IMG/VR virus record: IMGVR_UViG_3300020057_000056
Span: 1 to 45,568 of that record
DNA length: 45,568 bases
DNA from: a virus
Direction: 5' to 3' (one strand)
In this document: positions 6,054 to 12,771 of the stretch, one piece after another
Numbering within the stretch: position 1 is the first letter of the stretch
How the letters are laid out: every line of letters starts with the position of its first letter
Program-made: the position numbers and the translations under genes
The notes under the pieces: model-generated
What the model saw: only the letters and a program-made list of their open reading frames with translations
Told to the model about the DNA's origin: nothing
Database searches by the model: none

Positions 6054-8492
6054 ATGGCAGCTCCTAAAGTCTTGATAAGAGAAGTTCAGTCAGGAACTAA
6101 TACAATTGTTGGTGTAGGCACCTCAGTTGCTGGTTTTGTTGGCTTAGCAGACAAAGGCCCTATCGGCCAAGCTCAACTTGTAAGTTCTTTCGAACAATAC
6201 ACACAAGAATATGGCGATTTTAGATCGGATTCATATTTGTCTCACGCTGTCTTAGGATTTTTCCAGAACGGCGGACAATCATGCTTCGTAGTTAGAACTG
6301 GACACTACAGCAATTTAGCCAATGGTATTTTAGAAGTTACTGAAAATGCCAAGTCGACTGTAACTATAGTTGATAGAAATGAATCGGCTTCGATTCTCCA
6401 AGTAGACGCTCTTAGCGAAGGAGATCATGGAAATGATCTAGCCATTAAAATTAGCAGAGCTTCAAATGAGTCTTCTTCTTTCAATAAAGTATTTGGTTCT
6501 GATGCGGGAGTATACACAGACAATACATCAGCTGCTAGATCTGCCGCCCTTTTCAAGGCTATGGTAGATGATGGTGGATCTTTCTCAGATTCTACTGTTG
6601 CCGCTGCTACTGCAGGTGGCGGAACTCCATTTAATGCATTAAGCGCCGCTCCTGCTATTGATGATGCTTTATATATTGGAGCTAAAGAACGAACTTTTGA
6701 TTCCATGTATTTCGGAATCTCTACGCCGGCTACGACTGCGGGTGTTGCCCAATTAGAGTATTGGAACGGATCTTCGTGGCAATCACTAAGCCCTACCACT
6801 GACCAGATCACTTCTGGTGGAATCACTTTTGGAGCCGCAGTTAATGCTAATGCTTTAGTACAATTTAGTGTTCCAGCTGACTGGAAACGAGTTTCCATAA
6901 ATAGTTCATTAGGTTACTGGGTTCGATACAAAGTTACGACAGTGTTCAGCGGCACTGCCCCACAAATTAACAGAGTAAGCTTAAGTGAAGACAAACCTTT
7001 TGGTGCCTTCACAGCTGTAGCAAGTAATGTAACTGAAACAGCCGCTGCCACAGCAGTCAATGATGTTATGTATCTTGGCTCTAATTCACCTTTCAAGTAT
7101 GCCGTACTTTCGTTACTAACCCCTGGAGATTCTTCAGGAATAGTAGCTTGGGAATACTGGAATGGTCAAAGTTGGTCTGCACTACAAAACATCACACAGA
7201 CTGTTGCCAATGCACAACACTTACGAGCATCTGGCACTGTTGGATGGGATTCCCCAAGTGATTGGAGAAAGACCTCTATCAACAGTAGCTCAAGCTTTTA
7301 TTTTGTTAGAGCACGAATTACCACAGACTATTCATCGGCTTATCCTTCATTAGACCACGCCTTACCCGCCTCAGACTTGTTTAAACTTTCAGTCTTGCTA
7401 TCAGGTACTGAAGTTGAGTCTTTTGATAACGTGCAAGTAGAAGACAGCTCCCTAGCTAGCTACGCAGAGTCTATTAATTCAGCACATGTAGCTGTTTCAG
7501 TATTGGCGAATGCAACTACTGCTCCTAACAATCGACCTATCGAAGTTGTTTCAGCAAGTCTCTCTGGAGGCCTATACGTAACATCTTCCGTTAATGACAA
7601 TGATTATGTTGGAAGTGAAGCTTCACTATCTGGCCTAGAAGCCCTACCAGATGAAGTTAACGTTGTAGTTATCCCTGGGATCAGAACTGAAGCTGTATAC
7701 AACGGTATGTTAAGTCACTGTGAGCGACAAGCAGATCGAATGGCTATACTTGAAGCCCCTGGAGATAGTAGCACAGATACACCACTTGAATTAGTTGAAC
7801 TAGTTCGTGATGAAGCTGCTTTAAATTCCAGCTATGGAGCTATTTATGACTATTGGATTTTAGTTCCTGATCCTGTAACAGGCATCAGAATCGCAGTCCC
7901 ACCTTCTGGGCATCTAGCCGGTATGTATGCCAGAGTAGACGAAGCTCGCGGTGTGTGGAAAGCTCCTGCTGGCGTCCAGGATGGACGACTTTTTGGAGCC
8001 CTTGGAGTAGTTCGAAAGACTTCTCAAGCTGAACGAGATTTGATGTATGATAACAAGATCAACCCGATCCGGGACCAAGCTGGTTTCGGAGTTTACGTTG
8101 ATGGATCAATTACACTAGCTCCTTTAGGAACGGATTTTGATCGAGTATCGGTCCGAAGATTGTTCTTATTTGTTGAAGAAAGTCTACAAGACGCTTCTGA
8201 AGTTTATAAGCATGAGCCTATTGACAGCAAGCTATTTGATAAAATGCGATCAAGCTATTCTTCCTTTTTACTAGACCTTTGGAGAAAAGGTGGACTAAGA
8301 GGAACTAAAGCTTCTGATGCATTCTTTGTAATAGTGAATGATAGCAATAACCCACCTTCATCTGTTAATAAACGACAAGTGAATGTAAAGATTGGTCTTG
8401 CAGCTCTACAACCAGCGGAGATGATCGTCCTTGAGTTCACGGTCGACAAGAGAGCCTTAAACGCCGAACTCGCATCACAAGGTTTAGTATAA
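6054..8492 (+). CDS. Contractile tail sheath protein with two inserted domains
   Basis: The 812-residue subunit forms the sheath that contracts to drive the tube into the host. The N-terminus (PKVLIREVQSGTNTI, then GTSVAGFVGLADKGP) and the C-terminal quarter (YVDGSITLAPLGTDFDRVSVRRLFLFVEESL, split here for description as the conserved RRL-FLFVEESL helix) are typical of sheath proteins. The C-terminal part supplies the strands that link neighbouring subunits. The middle (about residues 195-440) holds two tandem units, each with an EYWNG-SW motif (residues about 235 and 367), which probably project from the sheath surface. It is much longer than simple sheaths (about 400 residues in P2). A strong ribosome site (GGAGG) precedes it. 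Confidence 0.93.
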   Translation: MAAPKVLIREVQSGTNTIVGVGTSVAGFVGLADKGPIGQAQLVSSFEQYTQEYGDFRSDSYLSHAVLGFFQNGGQSCFVVRTGHYSNLANGILEVTENAKSTVTIVDRNESASILQVDALSEGDHGNDLAIKISRASNESSSFNKVFGSDAGVYTDNTSAARSAALFKAMVDDGGSFSDSTVAAATAGGGTPFNALSAAPAIDDALYIGAKERTFDSMYFGISTPATTAGVAQLEYWNGSSWQSLSPTTDQITSGGITFGAAVNANALVQFSVPADWKRVSINSSLGYWVRYKVTTVFSGTAPQINRVSLSEDKPFGAFTAVASNVTETAAATAVNDVMYLGSNSPFKYAVLSLLTPGDSSGIVAWEYWNGQSWSALQNITQTVANAQHLRASGTVGWDSPSDWRKTSINSSSSFYFVRARITTDYSSAYPSLDHALPASDLFKLSVLLSGTEVESFDNVQVEDSSLASYAESINSAHVAVSVLANATTAPNNRPIEVVSASLSGGLYVTSSVNDNDYVGSEASLSGLEALPDEVNVVVIPGIRTEAVYNGMLSHCERQADRMAILEAPGDSSTDTPLELVELVRDEAALNSSYGAIYDYWILVPDPVTGIRIAVPPSGHLAGMYARVDEARGVWKAPAGVQDGRLFGALGVVRKTSQAERDLMYDNKINPIRDQAGFGVYVDGSITLAPLGTDFDRVSVRRLFLFVEESLQDASEVYKHEPIDSKLFDKMRSSYSSFLLDLWRKGGLRGTKASDAFFVIVNDSNNPPSSVNKRQVNVKIGLAALQPAEMIVLEFTVDKRALNAELASQGLV

Positions 8493-8507: not shown

Positions 8508-8975
8508 ATGGCAAAAATGAATGCATCAGATGGCAGTCTACCTGCTTTTACATTTCGAGTAGTACTAGGCGACTTGTCAATCGGATTTTCCGAAATTTCA
8601 GGATTAAAACAGGAAACTGAAGAAATCCTTTACAGAAATGGCGACGAAGCAACTCGACAGCATAAACTCAGAGGCTTAACTACCTTTCAAGATGTAACCT
8701 TAAAACAAGGGTTACTTCGAGACGGAGTCGCTATACAAGAAGCTCTTACCACATTCAACATTGAATCTGGTACTGCACAAGCTTCCCAGTATGTTTATGG
8801 AGAAGTTCGAATTGTTCAAATGGACCAAAGCGGTGCCGATGTTCTTGAATGGACATTAGAAAATGCTTGGGTCAGTTCTGTTGAAATCGATTCTTATGAT
8901 TCCAACTCTTCAGCACTACAGTTCTCTACTTTGACTTTGAAGCATGAAGGCCTACGCTACGCCAAGAAGTCCTAA
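8508..8975 (+). CDS. Tail tube protein (gp19 family), first of three
   Basis: A 155-residue member of the T4 gp19 / Hcp-like tube family (Pfam PF06841). Features seen are PAFTFRV, then IGFSEISGLKQETE, YRNGDE, LRGLTTFQDVTLKQGL and the C-terminal LENAWVSSVEIDSYDSNSS / LTLKHEGL. Rings of six such subunits stack to form the DNA conduit inside the sheath. It has the best ribosome site of the three paralogues (AGGAG) and is followed by a perfect 12-bp hairpin, consistent with the abundant tube protein. The order sheath then tube is standard. Confidence 0.9.
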   Translation: MAKMNASDGSLPAFTFRVVLGDLSIGFSEISGLKQETEEILYRNGDEATRQHKLRGLTTFQDVTLKQGLLRDGVAIQEALTTFNIESGTAQASQYVYGEVRIVQMDQSGADVLEWTLENAWVSSVEIDSYDSNSSALQFSTLTLKHEGLRYAKKS

Positions 8976-9050: not shown

Positions 9051-9530
9051 ATGCCTAAACTTACTTCTACAGTTCCTGGCGCAATTCCAGGTTTCATGTT
9101 CAGACTAGACGTACAAGGATTATCCATTGGACAAGCTTCCAAAATTGATGGACTTTCCAGTACGACAGACGTAGTTACATATAGAGGCGGAGCTGAGGGC
9201 GATACTCTTAGAAAACAAAAAGGGTTGACCCAGTATGATGATCTAGTTATCGAACACATCTATAAAGCTGACTTTACTACATGGGCTTCGCTGGGATTAG
9301 TATTCGAACCCACCGCAGGTGCATTTGGAATATCATCCCCAATTTATAAATTTACTATTATAATCACTTTAATGGATCATGATGGGAACGACAGGGTTCA
9401 ATTCTTTGTGAAGAATGCTTGGATTAAATCTTATAAGATCAACAACTTAGATGCGAATACTTCAGCTTACGCAATCGAGCAACTCACTTTAGCTCATGAA
9501 GGTTTTTCTAGAATAGGTGTGGACATATAA
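9051..9530 (+). CDS. Tail tube-like protein (gp19 family), second of three
   Basis: A 159-residue paralogue of the upstream tube protein. It has PGFMFRLDVQGLSIGQASKIDGLSS, the YRGGAEGDTLRKQKGLTQYDD core and the C-terminal FVKNAWIKSYKINNLDANTS / QLTLAHEGF segment. In injection systems and several phages, extra tube-like proteins form the baseplate-proximal initiator rings on which the tube grows (as Pvc5, or T4 gp48/gp54 in function). A low copy number is suggested by the lack of a clear Shine-Dalgarno before 9051 and by the hairpin just upstream. Its stop overlaps the next start. Confidence 0.85.
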   Translation: MPKLTSTVPGAIPGFMFRLDVQGLSIGQASKIDGLSSTTDVVTYRGGAEGDTLRKQKGLTQYDDLVIEHIYKADFTTWASLGLVFEPTAGAFGISSPIYKFTIIITLMDHDGNDRVQFFVKNAWIKSYKINNLDANTSAYAIEQLTLAHEGFSRIGVDI

Positions 9531-10069
9531 TGCCAGTATTCGAGACTTTCGATGATATAATTCCATCCTACAAATTCTTAGTAGAAATACCAGGATTTGG
9601 GTCCGTGAATTTCTCTGCCGTAGAAGGAATGGGTTTTACCCACAGAGTCCAGAAGTACATCTCTGGAGGCACTTTCCAGTCTGCCGAATTGTATCTAGGA
9701 ACAGACTATCATGATGTGACTCTTCGTCGAGGCATGAGTAGGTCAGCACAGTTATACGACTGGGCTAATCATGCCGTAGCTATCTATGACGAATATTCAC
9801 AGCAAACTGAGTTTGGCCACCAATCTAAACAACAAAGTGTAGTACTTCCACACACTTATAAGGTTGATGTAACTATTAGCCAGCTATCCGTAGCAGGCAT
9901 TGTAATGAAAAAATGGGTGTTGACAGAAGCATGGGTAAAGGGTTACAATATCAGTAACTTAGATGCATCCCGTAGTGAACTAAGCTTTGAGTCTATCACA
10001 CTATCATGTTCTGGAATTTTATCGGATTTCGCAGTAGACACTACCTCTCTTGCTGGAATTCTTGTCTAA
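9530..10069 (+). CDS. Tail tube-like protein (gp19 family), third of three
   Basis: At 179 residues this is the longest of the three paralogues. Family landmarks are IIPSYKFLVEIPGFGSVNFSA, YISGGTFQSAELYLGTDYHDVTLRRGM, and VLTEAWVKGYNISNLDASRSE / ESITLSCSGI. It carries an extra loop (about residues 88-110). It is joined to the second copy by a one-base TAATG overlap, so the two are probably made in equal, low amounts and form stacked adaptor or initiator rings between hub and tube. Which of the three is the bulk tube is inferred from translation signals. Confidence 0.83.
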   Translation: MPVFETFDDIIPSYKFLVEIPGFGSVNFSAVEGMGFTHRVQKYISGGTFQSAELYLGTDYHDVTLRRGMSRSAQLYDWANHAVAIYDEYSQQTEFGHQSKQQSVVLPHTYKVDVTISQLSVAGIVMKKWVLTEAWVKGYNISNLDASRSELSFESITLSCSGILSDFAVDTTSLAGILV

Positions 10070-10082
10070 GAAAGGAAAATAA

Positions 10083-10835
10083 ATGGAACCTATTTCACAA
10101 TTATTTCAGTACCGAGAAAAGGAAGTTGAACTTCCCAATGGGTACTTAGATTCTGACGGAGTACTGCATAGAGCAGTTAACGTAAGAGAACTTTCTGGAG
10201 AAGAAGAAGATATCCTTTTAGATGAAACTGAGTCAAAGAACGGCACCACAATCACTAATATTCTAAATAGAGTGTGTAAGCTTAAAGACAAACCCACACA
10301 GAAATTTGTCTCCGATTTATTAATGGTGGATCAACTGTATTTACTAGTACAGACCCGGTCATTGACATATGGAGATACATTCAAGTTTGATCAACTTTGT
10401 TCAAACCAAGCGTGCCAAAAAATTTCCAGAGTTAATCTAGAACTTAGTTCCTTGAAATTCCAAGGATCAAGTAACCCTAAATCACTTGAAGAGACTATAG
10501 AGTTACCAAATACCGGTGTTTCTGTCAGATTCAAGAAGAATCAAGGAAAAGACCAAGGAAGTCTACAAAAGATTCAAAAGGGTGCCAAAGACAAAGTCTC
10601 GCAGTTACTCATGTACAGAATTATTGAACTGACTAAAGAAGGTGTTGAATACCCTAAAATGGTAGTCAAATCTTTGCCGGGGGAAGACCGAAAATTTCTC
10701 CGTGAATTTATGAGAAAATCTGAGGGGGATGCCGAAACAATGATAGACTTTAGTTGCTATCATTGCAGGCATGAAATGAAAATACAACTGCCGTTTGACC
10801 AGAATTTTTTTTGCTTAACGGAGGACGTAGACTAA
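10083..10835 (+). CDS. Baseplate / tape-measure-associated protein, T4 gp26-like
   Basis: A 250-residue protein of the T4_baseplate (gp26-like, PF12322) type. It has ELPNGYLDSDGVLHR, then VRELSGEEEDILL near residues 33-46, a DQLYLLVQTRSLTYGD segment (about 83-98) and two Cys pairs, C106/C111 and C225/C228, likely a zinc ribbon. In contractile systems this protein sits between tube and tape measure genes and helps assemble the hub or chaperones the tape measure. Near its end, codons 242-243 (TTT TTT) fall in a run of eight T, and a -1 slip there leads into the next ORF, giving a fusion of about 322 residues. Confidence 0.8.
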   Translation: MEPISQLFQYREKEVELPNGYLDSDGVLHRAVNVRELSGEEEDILLDETESKNGTTITNILNRVCKLKDKPTQKFVSDLLMVDQLYLLVQTRSLTYGDTFKFDQLCSNQACQKISRVNLELSSLKFQGSSNPKSLEETIELPNTGVSVRFKKNQGKDQGSLQKIQKGAKDKVSQLLMYRIIELTKEGVEYPKMVVKSLPGEDRKFLREFMRKSEGDAETMIDFSCYHCRHEMKIQLPFDQNFFCLTEDVD

Positions 10836-10839
10836 CGTC
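10805..10839 (+). other. Predicted programmed -1 ribosomal frameshift site
   Basis: The heptamer T TTT TTT (10805-10811) is in the correct phase for -1 slippage: zero-frame codons TTT (10806-10808) and TTT (10809-10811) re-pair one base back. Both frames are open only between 10799 and 10835, and the T-run (10805-10812) lies in that interval. Twelve bases downstream is a small 5-bp hairpin (GACGT 10824-10828 with ACGTC 10835-10839), a possible but weak stimulator. Location just upstream of the tape measure gene matches the conserved frameshift of lambda G/GT and P2 E/E'. Confidence 0.75.
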
Positions 10840-11050
10840 ATCCGATTACGGGAAAGATACATACTCCCTTACACTAGATATGGGAGCTACGACTTTGGAC
10901 AAGGCAGCTTTCGACATTTCTTACCACATGCACACTCCCATAAGTGATGTCTATAAAATGCCCGTAAAAAAGCGGATGTTGTTCCAGGAATTTTTAAAAG
11001 AGCAAAAGACTTTTGAGAACCAGGAACTAAACAAAAGCCGTAAAAAATAG
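10811..11050 (+). CDS. Frameshift extension ORF before tape measure (DUF6760-like)
   Basis: This ORF encodes 79 codons in the -1 frame relative to the gp26-like gene, ending just before the tape measure gene. The start given is a TTG with no Shine-Dalgarno, and no in-frame start follows the GGAGG at 10820-10824 at useful distance. I therefore infer it is translated mainly as the tail of a fusion, join(10083..10811, 10811..11050). The segment LDKAAFDISYHMHTPISDVYKMP then KRMLFQEFLKE resembles the small helical YHxHxP proteins that follow gp26-like genes in injection-system clusters (from memory, DUF6760) and P2 gpE'. It probably acts as a tape-measure assembly chaperone. Confidence 0.75.
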   Translation: MLNGGRRLTSSDYGKDTYSLTLDMGATTLDKAAFDISYHMHTPISDVYKMPVKKRMLFQEFLKEQKTFENQELNKSRKK

Positions 11051-11064
11051 CAGGTGTATCAAAA

Positions 11065-12771
11065 GTGGAAAATCTAGAGCTTGGTATAAATATTACTATT
11101 AATGGCAACGTAAACCAAGCTGCCAACCAAGCCGCTCGCGCACTGGGGAATGCCTCCAATGCTGTAGACAGGCTGAAAAGATCCTCTGAGGGATCTCTGG
11201 GTAGTTTATTAGCCATACAATCATCACTATTCGTCATAACTAAATTTGCAACTACTTTCGCCTCTTTGGGTTTTGGAATCGTAGGAGGGATAGTCGGTGC
11301 CTTCACTGCTGGTGTAAAATCTGCAGGAGAGTTTGAGAAATCTCTGGCCTTCTTAAGGGTTGCTACAGGAAAATCGTTCACTTTTGCAAAACAAGAAGTT
11401 AATCGCCTTGCTACATCTACGGACCTATCTACACAATCAATTGTTGATATGTCCAGAAGATTACTTGGAGTAGGTCTAACTGCCGACCAAGTTTTCAAAA
11501 AAGTAAAGGGCGCACAGAATTCAGGGATTGTAAATATTGCTGCGGCTATTTCCTCCCTATCCTCAATTGAACGTCCTAGAGCACTGGCCAGTATTGCGAA
11601 CATATTTCAGGACTTAAGTTCTGTTAATAGACTATTAAATACAACTGTGCCACAATCCATTAAAGATGCATTTTCCTCCGCAGCGAATGATGCTGAAAAA
11701 TTTAATATAGTACTAGGATTTTTAGATCAAAGATTTGGCGGCATCTTCGGTCCAGAGGGCCTAGGTGGAAGTTTCGTGTTTATTGCCACTAGAGCTTTCC
11801 AAAACTTACAGGATTTAATAAACAGAGCATTCTTACCTGCTCTAGAGAGTCTTACCCCTGTATTCCAGACTTTAGGAGCAGAGCTCACAAAGCTTAAAGA
11901 CGACGAAAAATTTATTGCAGCTTTAAACAAAACATTTGTCAGTCTTGCAAAAATAGCCAGTTCCGTTTTAAAGATCGTAGTACAAATCGGACTTGGCCTA
12001 GTAAAATTTATTGCAGCATTCCCAAATTTTACTACTGGAATTGTACTGACTACATTATTTGGGGGAGCACTTTTAGGTGTATTCGGCTTAATAATTTTCG
12101 GGGCGTCATCAGTAGCACTCCTCGGCCTATCTGTAGGAAAACTGACTACTGGACTGGCTGCTGCAAGCTCAGCAACGGGCCTTTTCGCATTAAATTTAAA
12201 AATACTACAGGCAGCCACTAATCCAGCCAGTATTGCACTACTTGGACTTGCACTGGGCGGAATCTTAGGGCTTTTACTATCAATAAATGAACTCCCCCAC
12301 TTTATGGATAGATTTGGACAAGGGGCTAAAATGCTAGGGGTTACTCTAGGGACAATTATAAACTCTTTAATCCTCATTGTTTCTTTAATTTCAGGAATTG
12401 TAGGGGCCGTAGCGGGATTTGCTCTGGGCGGTATCCCAGGAGCTATTGCAGGAGCTCTCGGCGGATTCGGCCTAACATTTGCTGGATTAAGTGGCCTAAC
12501 AGACTCTGGAGAACAACTTCAGAAGAATACCCTGCCTGTACAGCAAGAAACTTCTTCAATGACAAGAGTTTCTGGAGAAAGTTCAATGAACAGTAGTCTA
12601 CTAGATTTAGTAGATTCTTTTCAAGAAATGCGCCAGGATCTTAATAAACTAGGCAACAGACCTATTGACATAAATAATAACGTCATGCTTGATGGTAAGG
12701 TTGTCTCAAACACAGTTAACCAAATAAATAAGACAGAGACTGAACGACTCGGATTTATCCTACCGCCCTAA
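11065..12771 (+). CDS. Tail tape measure protein
   Basis: A 568-residue protein with GTG start. The N-terminus is polar and helical with Ala/Asn-rich repeats (NQAANQAARALGNASNAVDRL). It is followed by a membrane-like stretch (about 55-90, Gly/Phe/Ala rich), a helical centre and several long hydrophobic, glycine-rich segments (about 310-365, 385-410, 430-480). This matches tape measure proteins, which fix tail length, fill the tube lumen and may form a pore in the host membrane. At 568 residues it predicts a short tail if the usual rule of about 1.5 angstrom per residue holds. Position after the frameshifted chaperone pair supports the call. Confidence 0.9.
   Translation: MENLELGINITINGNVNQAANQAARALGNASNAVDRLKRSSEGSLGSLLAIQSSLFVITKFATTFASLGFGIVGGIVGAFTAGVKSAGEFEKSLAFLRVATGKSFTFAKQEVNRLATSTDLSTQSIVDMSRRLLGVGLTADQVFKKVKGAQNSGIVNIAAAISSLSSIERPRALASIANIFQDLSSVNRLLNTTVPQSIKDAFSSAANDAEKFNIVLGFLDQRFGGIFGPEGLGGSFVFIATRAFQNLQDLINRAFLPALESLTPVFQTLGAELTKLKDDEKFIAALNKTFVSLAKIASSVLKIVVQIGLGLVKFIAAFPNFTTGIVLTTLFGGALLGVFGLIIFGASSVALLGLSVGKLTTGLAAASSATGLFALNLKILQAATNPASIALLGLALGGILGLLLSINELPHFMDRFGQGAKMLGVTLGTIINSLILIVSLISGIVGAVAGFALGGIPGAIAGALGGFGLTFAGLSGLTDSGEQLQKNTLPVQQETSSMTRVSGESSMNSSLLDLVDSFQEMRQDLNKLGNRPIDINNNVMLDGKVVSNTVNQINKTETERLGFILPP

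Follow-up and report, generated by a model that had tools for sequence, protein, structure and literature searches.

A predicted −1 frameshift in the gp26-like tail assembly chaperone gene of an uncultivated contractile-tailed phage

Tail assembly chaperones and the locus

Genes G and GT of phage lambda lie directly upstream of the tape measure gene and yield, by a −1 slip, a short and a long tail assembly chaperone, neither of which is expected in the virion. In contractile-tailed phages, P2 E/E′ and the tail assembly chaperones (TACs) of other myophages likewise have a −1 frameshift ahead of the tape measure gene. The slippery sequence of the Pakpunavirus TAC gene is GTTTTT (PMC12846349). 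The T4 gp26-like family is a tail assembly chaperone family, according to Vladimirov, Gautam and Davidson 2022 (Virology 566:9, pmid 34826709) as cited in PMC10885494 and PMC12846349. By the same second-hand accounts, frameshifting and the T4 gp26/gp51 pair have already been reported for the chaperones of T4-like phages. According to PMC12846349, poly-T slippery sequences are known in the TAC-N genes of these phages; PMC10885494 says that some T4-like phages have two chaperone genes, one short and one long and fused, in place of the frameshift.

The locus described here lies in a stretch of 45,568 nt (IMG/VR record IMGVR_UViG_3300020057_000056), the whole of which was analysed and is called the window. 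Like the TAC-N/TAC-NC pairs of T4-like phages described in these accounts, it has a gp26-like TAC-N, a T-rich −1 site just ahead of the tape measure gene and a homologous extension. Since the −1 device is already known in T4-like chaperones, the locus is a new, divergent member. The initial annotation placed it beside lambda G/GT and P2 E/E′, and the position directly upstream of the tape measure gene bears this out. The likeness to both is one of place and logic; lambda itself is a siphophage, and its slippery sequence differs.

The terminase gene of the window is at nt 229–1878 on the minus strand. The other genes include a scaffold, the major head protein, the sheath (nt 6054–8492) and three gp19-like tube proteins; downstream of the tape measure gene lie genes for the hub, gp25 and the wedge, followed by those for DnaB helicase and DNA polymerase. 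By these genes the window is a genuine contractile-tailed phage, small and uncultivated. The three gp19-like tail tube paralogues stand in tandem within one phage, at nt 8508–8975, 9051–9530 and 9530–10069.

The last of these tube genes (PF06841) adjoins on the 5′ side an ORF at nt 10083–10835 of the plus strand, which encodes a T4 gp26-like protein of 250 residues, the putative short form (TAC-N). On its 3′ side, nt 11065–12771 of the same strand encode the tape measure protein (phrog_167, 3e-6; phrog_991, 8e-6), the presumed client of the chaperone. The place between tube and tape measure genes is that of a tail assembly chaperone. The 0-frame protein matches PF12322 (T4_baseplate, gp26/gp51) over residues 31–243 with an E value of 5e-11 and 43.1 bits, against a curated cut-off of 24.5. 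In PHROGs it matches phrog_150 (9e-15) and weakly phrog_344, a tail assembly chaperone family. A sequence search of solved structures found nothing. In an AlphaFold2 model built from 32 sequences (pLDDT 90), the best PDB match is the HK97 gp13 tail assembly chaperone (2ob9) over residues 1–101, with a Z score of 6.9, which is below 8, and a Foldseek E value of 0.24 (probability 0.90); the second is YqbN (3klu), with Z 5.7, also below 8. The fold match, which is suggestive, and the gene position support the assignment of the modelled protein as a tail assembly chaperone.

A reading of the 0-frame product as a baseplate structural protein, on which the initial annotation had set the locus apart from lambda and P2, was rejected: the N-terminal fold is nearest to HK97 gp13, the gene has the chaperone position, and the gp26-like family is a chaperone family in the literature.

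Slippery site, frame geometry and predicted hairpin

The 0 frame ends at the TAA of nt 10833–10835. The −1 frame is open from nt 10799 to 11050, preceded by a TGA at nt 10796–10798. The 37 nt of nt 10799–10835 on the plus strand are thus the only stretch in which both frames are open. The heptamer T_TTT_TTT (nt 10805–10811) begins 6 nt into this overlap and belongs to a run of eight T at nt 10805–10812. The run reads CAG AAT TTT TTT TGC in frame, which puts the heptamer in phase for a −1 slip, as originally described. After 243 codons in the 0 frame, a slipping ribosome would read on into the −1-frame extension (nt 10812–11050, plus strand), which is accessible only after the slip, and would make a protein of 322 residues in which PFDQNFF is followed by LLNGGRR. 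The peptide IQLPFDQNFFLLNGGR is the junction of the predicted fusion, and IQLPFDQNFFCLTEDVD is specific to the short form.

The T run is the only one of at least 7 T in the window. With the codon usage of the window, 0.87% of random 13-codon stretches contain an in-phase homopolymer heptamer of A or T, and 5 such heptamers occur in its 13,486 codons. Given the two Phe residues, however, codon usage alone produces the heptamer in 33% of synonymous draws, so that the T run by itself is weak evidence. The case for a frameshift is carried by the frame relation, the conservation and the homology. The same 33%, and the proneness of homopolymers to error, could be taken to mean that the run and the open −1 frame are meaningless, or that a mutation or a sequencing error split one gene. 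An identical run of eight T, however, is present in three near-identical IMG/VR contigs from other metagenome samples (3300015360, 3300020195 and 3300020596), which differ from the window by 1–11 bases over 7–9 kb, making an assembly error unlikely. The extension is moreover a conserved domain, and the split frame with T_TTT_TTY recurs across many lineages. Chance or a broken gene is therefore close to refuted, and we give it hardly any weight.

A predicted stimulatory RNA hairpin (CGGAGGACGU / ACGUCAUCCG, nt 10819–10844, plus strand), absent from the initial annotation, starts 7 nt past the heptamer. Nt 10819–10828 pair with nt 10835–10844 in 9 of 10 positions. The fold has a z score of −2.67; folds as good are found at 3.7% of the coding sites of the window and in 2.6% of synonymous recodings. 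No comparable hairpin follows any of the four remaining A/T heptamers that are in phase in the window. Hairpins about 5–7 nt downstream of the heptamer are predicted also in the relatives L007, L020, L023 and L024. In 41 cyanophage-like sequences the mean minimum free energy is −11.1, against −8.3 ± 0.3 under protein-preserving codon permutation (0 of 300 permutations), a statistic in which the kinship of the sequences remains. The pairing in these sequences is 80.7%, with covariation above that of shuffles and mixed pair counts, and RNAalifold found no common hairpin across the 41. The hairpin of the window is likely real, as a predicted stimulator.

In the cyanophage-like contigs (L036–L115 and L023–L025), a hairpin is predicted about 5 nt past TTTTTTC, with some compensatory changes (CTC/GAG versus CAC/GTG).

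We infer the slippage, its rate, the effect of the hairpin and the roles of the two chaperones in the following form. Most ribosomes would terminate at nt 10835 and make the short form of 250 residues. A minority, delayed by the hairpin 7 nt downstream, would slip one base back on T_TTT_TTT, where both Phe-tRNAs can re-pair, and would yield the rarer long form (TAC-NC) of 322 residues with its additional C-terminal domain. The precedent of lambda gpG/gpGT suggests that the N part would coat the tape measure protein, whose gene comes next, and that recruitment of the tail tube subunits would fall to the C part.

The shift of frame might instead be made by RNA polymerase, slipping on the eight T to insert one extra U. 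Polymerase slippage begins near a run length of 8, and no other run of T in the window is as long as this one. Most of the −1 relatives, however, have at this site just six T followed by C, compared with eight T in the window, and six T then C is too short for productive polymerase slippage. The hairpins at ribosomal spacing downstream also speak for the ribosome, and slippage by the polymerase is accordingly a very improbable explanation.

The extension domain and its relatives

Scans of Pfam, PHROGs and NCBIfam with the window extension gave nothing meaningful, Pfam having no match even at E 10, and tblastn in phages returned chance matches only. Plasmid searches with the LuckySocke and SP-15 proteins found nothing. 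A sheath-based scan led back to the near-identical contigs already named and to two distant ones in which the locus was out of reach, and to nothing else.

A profile was built from the extensions of distant phage relatives, leaving out the window and T4, and was searched against the window and a 10-kb region of T4, which together have 1032 six-frame ORFs. The −1 ORF of the window ranks first (E 2.4e-4) and the T4 gp51 ORF second (E 0.003), the next having an E value of 0.64. The window extension outscores all 5000 of its own shuffles against the profile. By this profile evidence the extension is a conserved domain, homologous across the family. In nearly all the distant relatives collected from phage records, an extension ORF lies in a frame other than that of the gp26-like ORF and overlaps or adjoins its end, L017 being a weak case.

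The two domains also occur as one protein. T4 has two PF12322 copies, the hub assembly chaperones gp26 without the extension and gp51 with the extension in frame as its C-terminal domain, whereas each of the 13 other matched phage records has one copy. In T4 the short and the long protein thus come from two genes, by duplication and fusion, compared with the frameshift in the window. Two Bacteroidota injection-system clusters (ORFs L218:1357–2121 and L219:1324–2088) have both domains and the gene order sheath-tube-chaperone, but in a single continuous ORF that needs no frameshift. The junction of their domains falls at the same “-FF” as the predicted slip of the phages. These natural fusions mark both ORFs of the window as parts of one protein. 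The extension had earlier been likened to a separate gene of injection systems, presumably DUF6760-like; it does occur in such clusters, but in both loci examined it is fused in frame. A phmmer search with one injection-system C-terminus did not find the window extension, so the link from these systems to the window rests on the family profile.

With L218 and L219 encoding a single fused ORF, only the long form would be made in these systems.

The initial annotation held that the second ORF lacks a usable start of its own. This stands for ATG codons, since those at nt 10880 and 10928 are both without a Shine-Dalgarno sequence. It may not hold for TTG: the codon at nt 10895–10897 (plus strand), a possible alternative start, has GGGAG about 8 nt upstream, and starting there would give the entire conserved domain. 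A separate small protein might thus be made from this TTG or from the ATG at nt 10880, by coupled or independent initiation and with no fusion. In line with this, an ATG overlaps the 0-frame stop (TAATG) in L007 and L021, although the slippery run is present there too, and the annotations of SP-15, immuto and S-CAM9 give the extension as a small separate ORF.

In S-CAM9, the annotated “baseplate hub assembly catalyst” (L023:4211–4384) consists of the extension domain alone, read from an internal start, and is probably a mis-annotated frameshift product.

Against a separate protein, the −1 frame of the window is free of stops as far back as the heptamer, although an internal start does not require this, and T4 gp51 and bacterial injection systems have the extension and the gp26-like domain as one natural fusion. 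The slippery site and the frame relation are also conserved. T_TTT_TTY stands at the gene end in all 11 of the −1 lineages sampled (the window, LR756511, XacN1, Atu_ph07, Vibrio 2.275, PA5oct, 121Q, Melnitz, S-CAM9, S-PRM1 and AG-345). The same holds for 80 of 80 cyanophage-like contigs, in which the heptamer is invariably one codon ahead of the stop. Several −1 members have a −1 frame that is open from only 0–9 nt ahead of the heptamer. None of these lineages and contigs combines a missing slippery run with a second ORF that has an ATG and a ribosome site of its own. An exception to the conserved run was found later in L181 (nt 2211–2256), a member of the +1 clade described below, in which the extension is in the −1 frame and T_TTC_TTC takes the place of the T run. 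An internal start is thus an improbable source of the extension, though less so than polymerase slippage. The window protein is only about 25–29% identical to its nearest known relatives and, on the long branches of the tree, is not firmly placed.

A programmed −1 frameshift that yields a TAC-N and TAC-NC chaperone pair, joining the gp26-like protein to the downstream ORF as first proposed, is thus very probably the correct reading of this sequence. The geometry gives the fusion of 322 residues, and both the homology and the conservation of the heptamer back the −1 slip.

Predicted direction of the slip in the gp26-like family

A second class was seen among 87 contigs classified from one query (T4-like contigs L123–L210). 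The extension is in the +1 frame in 86 of these and in the −1 frame in one, L181. Of the +1 clade, 83 members have an in-phase TTT TTT. A T follows it in every one of these and precedes it in only 2 of the 83. The gene end of this class reads TTT TTT T(GG or AY) CCT. Seeing that Phe-Phe is common to the −1 and +1 classes, the contrast in heptamer and frame is hard to explain by the protein sequence. The tree suggests that the direction of the frameshift changed at least two or three times.

The site of the +1 class looks like one for a +1 slip in which both Phe-tRNAs re-pair. In L158 and L197, runs of eight T (AAT TTT TTT TGG) resemble that of the window, yet the extension is in the +1 frame. 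LuckySocke (L008:6725–6982) and LIS04 (L010:5572–5880) have +1 extensions without the TTT_TTT_T GG/AC CCT pattern; the gene end of LuckySocke, CTC TGA, resembles the +1 site of prfB.

The gp26-like chaperone gene has at its end a Phe-Phe run that may act as an evolutionary switch, a proposal for and against which we see even chances. A T in front (T_TTT_TTY) would give a −1 slip. TTT_TTT_T without a T in front, usually followed by GG CCT or AC CCT, would give a +1 slip into the same domain. The remaining state would be the in-frame fusion, as in T4 gp51 and the injection systems. No description of the +1 class was found in the literature searched, which covered the field in part. These +1 relatives are a more surprising by-product of the analysis than the −1 locus.

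With this locus, the frameshifted chaperones of T4-like contractile tails gain a deeply diverged lineage. For T4, whose gp26 and gp51 have long been entered as hub proteins or as assembly chaperones with an unknown action, it supports the view that the two are the short and the long tail assembly chaperone. It also explains why annotations of phage genomes overlook the extension or give it as a very small gene of its own, such as the “baseplate hub assembly catalyst”. With −1 slip, +1 slip, duplication and in-frame fusion to be compared within one family, the question of why phages need two forms, and some injection systems seemingly one, becomes testable.
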